Assembly (NCBI GenBank): GCA_029255105.1
Contig: JAQWWH010000041.1
Coordinates: 31,493-95,492 of the forward strand
Length of the DNA: 64,000 nucleotides
Source of the DNA: Flavimaricola sp.
GTDB taxonomy: Bacteria > Pseudomonadota > Alphaproteobacteria > Rhodobacterales > Rhodobacteraceae
Direction: 5' to 3'
Shown: one piece after another, positions 45,007 to 47,381 of the stretch
Position numbering within the stretch: the first letter of the stretch is position 1
Layout: the number at the start of each line of letters is the position of its first letter
Notes under the pieces: model-generated
Databases searched by the model: none
The model's input: only the letters and a program-made list of their open reading frames with translations
What the model was told of the DNA's origin: nothing
Translations under genes and position numbers: made by a program

Positions 45007-45597
45007 ATGTTTTTCGATTGCCCCGCCCGGCCTCCCCGCGCATGGTTCGATCCAATCAGCCGCGAGGATCGAGCATCCGGAATGAAAGACAAGCGAGACG
45101 TTTCTGCCACCGAACCCGAATGGCATCGCGAGGTGCCAAAGGTGTTCTGGGACCCGTCCCGCAGATTGCTGCGGGCCTTGCGCCGCTATGACTACTGGCG
45201 GGCGCGCTCGGGCCCCTGGGCCATGCTCGCCCGCCGCCGCTGGGTTGTGTCGCACAGGGTCTGGAGCGTGGTCACCCAGGCCGAGATCCATCTGGGCACC
45301 TCTATTGGTGGGGGCCTGCATATGCCCCACCCCAATGGCGTCGTCATTCACCCCAAGGCTACCATCGGCCCCAATTGCACCCTGATGTCCCAGGTGACCA
45401 TCGGGATGGATCGCAAAGGTGCCGTTCCCCGCATCGGTGGCCATGTGGACATCGGGGCGGGCGCGCGCATTCTGGGCGGCGTGACCATCGGGGATCACGC
45501 CCAGATCGGTGCCAATGCGGTTGTGACGCGGGATGTCCCCACCGGCATGATCGCCGTCGGCATCCCGGCCCGCAACCGTGCTCCGGGGACCGGTTAG
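45007..45597 (+). CDS. Serine O-acetyltransferase (CysE)-like hexapeptide acyltransferase; start may be 45082
   Basis: 196 aa; EIHLGTSIGGGLHMPHPNGVVIHPKATIGPNCTLMSQVTIGMDRKGAVPRIGGHVDIGAGARILGGVTIGDHAQIGANAVVTRDVP. Confidence 0.85.
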   Translation: MFFDCPARPPRAWFDPISREDRASGMKDKRDVSATEPEWHREVPKVFWDPSRRLLRALRRYDYWRARSGPWAMLARRRWVVSHRVWSVVTQAEIHLGTSIGGGLHMPHPNGVVIHPKATIGPNCTLMSQVTIGMDRKGAVPRIGGHVDIGAGARILGGVTIGDHAQIGANAVVTRDVPTGMIAVGIPARNRAPGTG

Positions 45598-46715
45598 CCG
45601 ATCATCGGGCCAAAACGTCCCTGCGTCCGGGCATAGTGGCGGATCAGCCGTTGCAGCGCGATGCGTAGCACGATCTTGCCGGATCGGGCCGACCAGCCCA
45701 TATGCCGCTCAAGAACCTCCATCCCTTCAAGGTAGCAACAGGCCCGGAGCGCGACATCGCCAAGGCCCGGCCCCAACTCTGCCAGAGCCTGCGCCACCCG
45801 GTCGTGGGCCGCGCGGGACGCTTTTGGAAGATCCGGGCCCTGAGGCGGAATGCCTCCGACATAGTCCAGCCAATTTGGTCCGCCCCCTGCCCCGCCCATC
45901 TGCGCAATCTCAAAATCCTCGCGCAGTTGTTCGCCCGCCGCCAGGTGGTCGCGCCGCAGGAAGGGTTTGCCATCCCTGTCGCGCCGCCGGGCCAGTCCGA
46001 TCAGCGGGCTTTCGACAAAGCCGTTTCGCATCTGCGACAGGTGGGCGTCGTCAGTATCCACCGCCAACCAGGTGCGCGGGCTTGTGGCATCACGCTTTAG
46101 CCCTTCCATATCGGACAGCGACAGGGCCCGGTTCTCATCCGCAGCCATCAAGTCCTTGAGCGCGACCCGGCCCTGACTGGTGATGTGATAGCGGGCAATC
46201 CGGGCGTCTGGATCGCTACAGGCAATCCATTCTTTCAGGGCCATGACCTGCGCGATGTCGCGGGTCACAACGGCGGTGCGCAGGGTTTCGCCGTCACCAA
46301 TTTCGCGGACGACAACACCCATTTCCATGTCGCTGGCCACGGCAAGAACGGCACCGGGTTCGGCCAGCCGTCGCAGGACCCGCAGCCCTTCGTCCGACAC
46401 CTTTGCCATGTCCGGCAAGCCGTTGAAGGGGACAGCCCCATTGGTGCGCTTATCCATCGGCGACCTCCCGTCACTGGCGGTGGCATTGGGCAGAACGGCT
46501 GACAGGGTCTTGAGCGCCCCGTCAACCAGCGGGTCGTCTCGACGCTGCTCAAGCCGCCTGATCTGGCGCAGGACTGTCGAGGCATGGACCTCGGACCCGC
46601 GGGCCAGCGCCCGGATCGGAAGGCCGGTTTCGGTATGGGCGATGTAAAGGCGCGCGCGTTCGGGCACCCATTCCGGGAGGTCCGCCAAAGCGGCGGCGGT
46701 TCCGTCAGATGTCAT
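45594..46715 (-). CDS. DUF6456 / helix-turn-helix regulator, candidate GafA-type gene transfer agent activator
   Basis: 373 aa; N-terminal HTH-like GLPIRALARGSEVHASTVLRQIRRLEQRRDDPLVDGAL; C-terminal LDYVGGIPPQGPDLPKASRAAHDRVAQALAELGPGLGDVALRACCYLEGMEVLERHMGWSARSGKIVLRIALQRLIRHY. Confidence 0.75.
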   Translation of the reverse strand: MTSDGTAAALADLPEWVPERARLYIAHTETGLPIRALARGSEVHASTVLRQIRRLEQRRDDPLVDGALKTLSAVLPNATASDGRSPMDKRTNGAVPFNGLPDMAKVSDEGLRVLRRLAEPGAVLAVASDMEMGVVVREIGDGETLRTAVVTRDIAQVMALKEWIACSDPDARIARYHITSQGRVALKDLMAADENRALSLSDMEGLKRDATSPRTWLAVDTDDAHLSQMRNGFVESPLIGLARRRDRDGKPFLRRDHLAAGEQLREDFEIAQMGGAGGGPNWLDYVGGIPPQGPDLPKASRAAHDRVAQALAELGPGLGDVALRACCYLEGMEVLERHMGWSARSGKIVLRIALQRLIRHYARTQGRFGPMIG

Positions 46716-46807
46716 TCGTCATTTTCCCATTTGCTCGACCCGTCTCCGGCAAGGCGGCAGGTCAGGTTTCCTCGTTGGCTACAGCCCGCAACCTAAGAGG
46801 GCATTCC

Positions 46808-46822
46808 TTACCCAAATCTTAA
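46808..46822. promoter_or_regulatory. Putative CtrA-type box TTAC-N7-TTAA
   Basis: TTAC CCAAATC TTAA, about 95 bp upstream of the DUF6456 gene start. Confidence 0.6.
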
Positions 46823-46832
46823 CAATGAAGGG

Positions 46833-46841
46833 TGTGGATAA
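46833..46841 (-). promoter_or_regulatory. Putative DnaA box (perfect TTATCCACA on minus strand)
   Basis: tgtggataa on plus strand; paired with ctatccaca at 46888-46896. Confidence 0.55.
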
Positions 46842-46871
46842 GCATTGTTTCCAAAATGCAAACAATGCTTA
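46839..46871. repeat. 12-bp perfect inverted repeat, 9-nt spacer
   Basis: taagcattgttt-CCAAAATGC-aaacaatgctta. Confidence 0.9.
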
Positions 46872-46887
46872 AGGGACCGTGCTTGAC

Positions 46888-46896
46888 CTATCCACA
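46888..46896 (+). promoter_or_regulatory. Near-consensus DnaA box (CTATCCACA)
   Basis: One mismatch to TTATCCACA; opposite orientation to 46833-46841. Confidence 0.45.
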
Positions 46897-46967
46897 GGGC
46901 GCAACGGCGACAAAGATGAGTGACACTCGGACCTGTAAAACGCAGTTGACACAAGGAGCCAATCATC

Positions 46968-47381
46968 ATGCACGACCTAGCCGGATTGATCGCAGCCCTG
47001 CACCGACCCCGCCTTTTGGTGCAGGCGGCGCGTTTTGGGGTTGATAACTACAGACGCACCCATCGCCTGCCCCGCCTTTTGGGCACAGCTGTGCTACCCG
47101 GAACCGGCCCTGCGATCCTTGCCCTGATAGAGATGGAGCGTGAGCTGAACGACCAACGCCGCCAGCCCGGCGCGCCTTATAGCCCGGCCGTCCATGTAGA
47201 TGTGCTGATCGCCCTGCTCGGTGAGGCCCGGGCCTTGCGGGCCCAGATCGATGTCACAGATGGCGAGGCTACAGGAATGCGTCCGGAACCGAGGCCTTCT
47301 TTTCCGCCACATAGGCGTCAAGAGCCTGTGCAATCGCCGGATCCAGTTCAGGCTGGCGATAGGTCTCGAGCATGCGCTTGA
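46968..47381 (+). CDS. DUF6477 family protein
   Basis: MHDLAGLIAALHRPRLLVQAARFGVDNYRRTHRLPRLLGTAVLPGTGPAILALIEMERELNDQR; divergent from DUF6456 gene; 3' end overlaps mttB-like gene. Confidence 0.75.
   Translation: MHDLAGLIAALHRPRLLVQAARFGVDNYRRTHRLPRLLGTAVLPGTGPAILALIEMERELNDQRRQPGAPYSPAVHVDVLIALLGEARALRAQIDVTDGEATGMRPEPRPSFPPHRRQEPVQSPDPVQAGDRSRACA

Follow-up and report, generated by a model that had tools for sequence, protein, structure and literature searches.

The divergent 252-bp region between two genes of the window (the whole 64,000-nucleotide stretch of Flavimaricola sp. DNA that was analysed) is, as far as its sequence tells, a control region that gafA shares with its partner, the rcc01866/DUF6477 homolog, and would as such decide whether a cell makes gene transfer agents (GTAs). 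The explanation that best accounts for our observations as a whole, and which we consider fairly probable, is a conserved gafA/rcc01866 switch that would be driven by CtrA, reinforced by GafA, and supplied with an input from DnaA. It has long been asked why GTAs are made by only a small number of cells, mainly in stationary phase; the inputs to GTA production known so far are CtrA, quorum sensing, and the stringent response. The recurrence of DnaA boxes at the master activator suggests that chromosome replication feeds into it directly, a hypothesis open to testing.

GafA relatives were sought in 121 genomes and 50 loci were taken, the window's own among them; the divergent arrangement of gafA and the DUF6477 gene is held in 49 of these 50. 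In R. capsulatus, GafA is a direct activator of the gene transfer agent, and CtrA and GtaR bind the gafA promoter (PMC6363796, PMC9638019); rcc01866 is required there for GTA maturation and lysis (PMC9638019). The window's genome contains a GTA cluster, located on a different contig from gafA. In the single congener examined (G001, locus L087), the GTA terminase large subunit gene has a shortened match and contains two internal stop codons, which suggest that the GTA of this congener may be decaying. Phage relatives of GafA, sought for comparison, amounted to a single distant partial match.

Table 1. Features of the gafA/DUF6477 control region and its flanking genes (positions in the window).
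Feature	Position	Strand	Basis or remark
gafA homolog of 373 aa with a C-terminal DUF6456 domain; GafA directly activates RcGTA-type GTAs	45594..46715	-	Pfam PF20057 E=4e-50; relatives family-wide; PMC6363796
Divergent control region	46716..46967	.	252 bp, 50.8% GC
Conserved CAACCT(A)AG.GG(TTG) element, gafA side of CtrA box, partly degenerate in window	46789..46802	.	alignment; fixed offset in 58/71 independent regions
CtrA box TTAC-N7-TTAA, TTACCCAAATCTTAA, gafA promoter	46808-46822	.	read directly and alignment; counterpart CtrA-bound in R. capsulatus (PMC6363796)
Perfect DnaA box TGTGGATAA (TTATCCACA on minus strand)	46833-46841	-	between CtrA box and inverted repeat
Inverted repeat TAAGCATTGTTT (46839-46850), N9, AAACAATGCTTA (46860-46871)	46839..46871	.	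perfect 12-bp arms
Conserved core of repeat, ATTGTTT and AAACAAT, beginning 21 bp past CtrA box	46844-46850 and 46860-46866		alignment
CCGTGCTT, degenerate version of conserved CCGNNCGG palindrome	46877..46884	.	alignment
DnaA box CTATCCACA, one mismatch	46888-46896	+	common to congener L055; same place in L047
GCGCAACGGCGA, degenerate version of conserved GCGCAACACCCG..GGTTGTG element ahead of DUF6477 start	46899..46910	.	intact in congener L055
rcc01866/DUF6477 homolog, divergent partner of gafA	46968..47381	+	Pfam PF20083 E=6e-32; synteny in 49/50 relatives

An earlier note on this DNA had described an AT-rich patch with a CtrA-type box, two inverted DnaA boxes, and a 12-bp inverted repeat, and this is borne out, every motif lying at the coordinates given. 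The core at 46800-46880 has a GC content of 40.7%, versus 50.8% for 46716-46967 and ~61% for the whole window. Direct reading confirms the CtrA-type box and the perfect minus-strand DnaA box, which overlaps the left arm of the inverted repeat by 3 bp as had been claimed; the second DnaA box is likewise present, with the refinement that it carries one mismatch. The inverted repeat is perfect over both 12-bp arms in the window, but in the congener (L055) the outer 4 bp of the arms are unpaired and pairing extends over ~8 bp per arm, so only this inner part appears to be conserved.

A CtrA box scoring at least 7 (of 8.5) is present in 45 of 49 gafA control regions, and in a second set of 76 regions a CtrA box was located in 71; the window's box corresponds to the known gafA site (Fogg 2019, PMC6363796). 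It lies 93 bp from the gafA start, a distance matched by other relatives at 88-107 bp. When 45 regions are aligned with the CtrA box as anchor, the order from the gafA side is CAACCTNNGGTTG, GTTAC-N7-GTTAA, ~22 bp, ATTGTTTC-N-AA-N4-TAAACA, the CCGNNCGG palindrome, and CGCAACACCCGCTTAGGTTGTG. The conserved set, held at near-constant spacing, comprises CAACCT..GGTTG, the CtrA box, the repeat ATTGTTTC..TAAACA at a fixed 22±1 bp from the CtrA box across the family, the CCGNNCGG palindrome, and GCAACACCCG..GGTTGTG. Matrices built on the 45 regions were then tested on 71 regions that a separate scan had supplied, and the four non-CtrA elements were recovered no more than 6 bp from their expected distance to the CtrA box in 58, 58, 59, and 66 of the 71 (chance, ~4). 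This recovery at the expected distances in independent regions indicates that the inverted repeat is a real and old element. With at most one mismatch, ATTGTTT-N9-AAACAAT occurs at two places in the window's genome and its reversed control at none; the bare repeat pattern with one mismatch also matches many unrelated places. The window's copies of the CCGNNCGG and GCAACACCC elements are degenerate.

The GafA C-terminal domain most likely binds at the repeat, the palindrome, or both, which would give positive autoregulation. In R. capsulatus, this domain binds fragment 3 of three 50-bp fragments from the 150 bp upstream of gafA (PMC9638019); if fragment 3 is taken as the outermost, it corresponds to the repeat and palindrome in most relatives. 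The palindrome part, CCGNNCGG, is enriched in the GTA main promoters (z ~7), where it sits between the apparent -35 and -10, and the repeat is matched there loosely and weakly. We regard the palindrome as the better candidate GafA site and the GafA C-terminal domain as one candidate reader of the repeat. As a motif of the whole GTA regulon the repeat is doubtful, given its weak matches in GTA promoters and the presence of the bare pattern in unrelated places. It is possible, if doubtful, that the repeat is an IHF site or is bound by some unrelated regulator, for instance a RogA-like repressor, and is no part of the GafA site. IHF and RogA act at the Caulobacter gafYZ promoter (PMC11150451), and the symmetry of the repeat suggests a dimeric protein; however, the IHF consensus is not enriched in 125 gafA control regions (exact matches, 2 versus 1.9 after shuffling; one mismatch, 43 versus 33.6) and has no match in the window, and IHF was rejected as the repeat's reader.

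Upstream of the gene for the terminase small subunit, the GTA main promoters (L061-L090) have a common core like TTGACTTTGCGAACGGTCTAAGGTA, in which a CGNNCG palindrome between -35 and -10 is often preceded by CAACCT; after the core comes a conserved leader that contains a hairpin-like GC stretch and TTTTTC. A distinct palindrome, ATTGTTTCC-N5-GGAAACAAT, recurs in the window's genome (G000:C65:7830-7852) and at various places in many relatives, and is probably the operator of an unrelated regulator.

The gafA region has repeatedly acquired DnaA boxes, most of which lie between the gafA start and the CtrA box. The first set of regions has an exact box in 9 of 49 and a box with at most one mismatch in 22 of 49 (31 boxes; reversed motif 0; mean of shuffles 2.2), and the second has boxes with at most one mismatch in 23 of 76 (36 boxes; reversed motif 1). 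Both sets together hold 67 such boxes in 45 of 125 gafA control regions, versus a mean of 6.1 and a maximum of 11 in shuffles and a single match of the reversed motif. In the second set, 32 of the 36 boxes are on the side of the CtrA box that faces gafA, and 32 share one orientation. Paired boxes, often direct repeats, are spaced at 12 bp (22 pairs), 11 bp (3 pairs), or 23-24 bp (6 pairs). Genome-wide, the exact box is not more frequent than its reversed control; a DnaA box followed by a CtrA box 8-38 bp on occurs 27 times in 397 genomes, with 24 of the 27 at gafA and none for the reversed control. A literature search, with subscription papers and supplements outside its reach, found no report of DnaA boxes at gafA. 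The CtrA box was already known as a gafA site; what is new here is the DnaA boxes. A quick tree of 106 GafA proteins requires at least 18 changes in box presence, suggesting that boxes are gained and lost repeatedly, with fast turnover.

Within the window's genome, exact TTATCCACA occurs 10 times in 3.99 Mb, so that ~0.0006 would be expected in 252 bp and the perfect box at 46833 lies beyond chance expectation; shuffles give ~0.05 boxes with at most one mismatch per such region, versus the 2 seen. The two boxes are inverted to each other and 55 bp apart, and the tandem same-direction 12-bp arrangement of relatives (not strictly required for DnaA control) is absent. The only congener examined (L055) lacks the perfect box and contains the CTATCCACA box; at the place of the latter, ahead of a GCAACAC element, L047 also has CTATCCACA and L039 has TTATCCACA. 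The gafA regions of the nearest named relatives (L158-L169, Yoonia/Loktanella-like) contain no DnaA box. The unshared perfect box and the boxless near relatives make the family-level claim stronger than the claim for this genome; together with the 64% of gafA regions that have no box, such relatives also suggest that DnaA input is inessential to the switch. As one of two readings, the earlier note had proposed that DnaA and CtrA control the promoters of gafA and of the DUF6477 gene. Comparison of orthologous intergenic regions supports this at the level of the family, where the CtrA box is conserved and DnaA boxes are enriched, but the window's own boxes lie outside the usual leader position.

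These observations bear on two other accounts of the patch. It is quite possible that the region is merely the known CtrA-controlled gafA promoter, with both window boxes chance matches or relics and DnaA uninvolved here. The congener without the perfect box, the boxless L158-L169, and the unusual box position fit this account; the very low expectation for an exact box, the recurrence of CTATCCACA in the congener and in place in L047, and the strong family-wide enrichment with 12-bp tandem spacing argue against it. The earlier note had also considered an origin of replication or origin-like element of the Caulobacter Cori type, and this we judge extremely unlikely. Although a CtrA box, DnaA boxes, and AT-rich DNA do occur together here, in nine relatives whose chromosomes are near-complete, gafA and dnaA are separated by 36-54% of the chromosome (from listed coordinates), a published survey places gafA near ter (PMC8116508), and GC skew within the 64-kb window has no switch at the patch. 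In addition, there are two boxes only and no dense cluster, and two promoters suffice to explain the region. The origin reading was rejected on the basis of gafA's position roughly opposite dnaA, the survey, and the absence of a skew switch in the window. A DnaA-box cluster sought as a positive control was found in none of the 20-kb stretches around dnaA, so this search did not locate the family's origin.

A second conserved place for DnaA boxes lies upstream of uvrC, where TTNTCCGCA-N3-TTATCCACA-N(5-6)-GTGGA is present in many Rhodobacteraceae (L256, L257, L259, L260, L268-L271, L273-L276, L278, L279, and others). Among the 30 loci retrieved with the tandem pattern, 16 are this place, with boxes at the 12-bp tandem spacing. 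The window's genome has an exact box upstream of uvrC (L005, G000:C47, around 70771); this genome also has exact boxes a short way ahead of smc and of a gene for a pilus-type secretin (L006, G000:C73, 46829; L008, G000:C90, 7089).

Which protein would read the boxes at gafA? Because the N-terminal domain of GafA resembles DnaA domain IV (PMC6363796, PMC9638019), the boxes could be autoregulatory sites for GafA itself, but several observations make this improbable. At the position of the box-reading DHTT motif of the family's DnaA, GafA reads (C)HAST, and a search of 30 GTA promoters, the specific targets of the GafA N-terminal domain in R. capsulatus, gave 0 DnaA boxes. In R. capsulatus, this domain shows only non-specific binding to gafA promoter fragments and is dispensable for autoregulation (PMC9638019). 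The replaced residues, the boxless GTA promoters, and the tandem boxes at uvrC suggest that DnaA is a likelier reader than GafA; on the first two of these grounds, GafA was set aside as the box reader.

We propose a mechanism in which CtrA would drive gafA from its box, as has been shown by others in R. capsulatus, and GafA would reinforce its own expression. DnaA would bind its boxes and couple gafA to replication. Where boxes exist, DnaA would most likely occlude or block gafA transcription while it is abundant, the direction of this effect being the least certain step; the block would act from the leader or, in the window, from inside the core promoter. There, the perfect box lies between the CtrA box and the repeat, a position from which DnaA, once bound, would be in competition with CtrA, RNA polymerase, or GafA. 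In Caulobacter, DnaA declines on entry into stationary phase (PMC4489657); a fall of DnaA at this stage, when GTAs are made, would release gafA. The broadest form of this proposal, in which DnaA directly regulates the GTA switch across the Rhodobacteraceae, with tandem leader boxes repressing gafA and stationary-phase loss of DnaA licensing GTAs, is tentative and, taken whole, rather unlikely. If true, the packaging of DNA and the lysis of the cell would depend directly on replication being absent.

The closest known system is the R. capsulatus gafA (rcc01865) promoter, which, like the window, has divergent gafA and rcc01866 with a CtrA site upstream of gafA (PMC6363796, PMC9638019), and in which the GafA C-terminal domain is expected to bind toward the outer end of the 150 bp ahead of gafA (PMC9638019). 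It differs in that the CtrA box is 93 bp from the gafA start in the window versus the 65-71 bp usually reported, and in that the available parts of these sources (PMC6363796, PMC9638019) describe for it neither DnaA boxes nor the repeat nor the further fixed elements seen here. The gafYZ and gtaT promoters of Caulobacter crescentus also involve GafA-type activators, and the GafZ-bound palindrome between their -35 and -10 resembles the CGNNCG palindrome of the GTA promoters described here; in contrast, control there includes IHF and RogA and the activator is split, and the text of this report mentions DnaA in a reference title only (PMC11150451). Like Caulobacter Cori and the DnaA/CtrA cell-cycle promoters, the patch mixes CtrA and DnaA sites; unlike Cori, it is no origin, lies roughly opposite dnaA, and appears to control a domesticated phage-like system.
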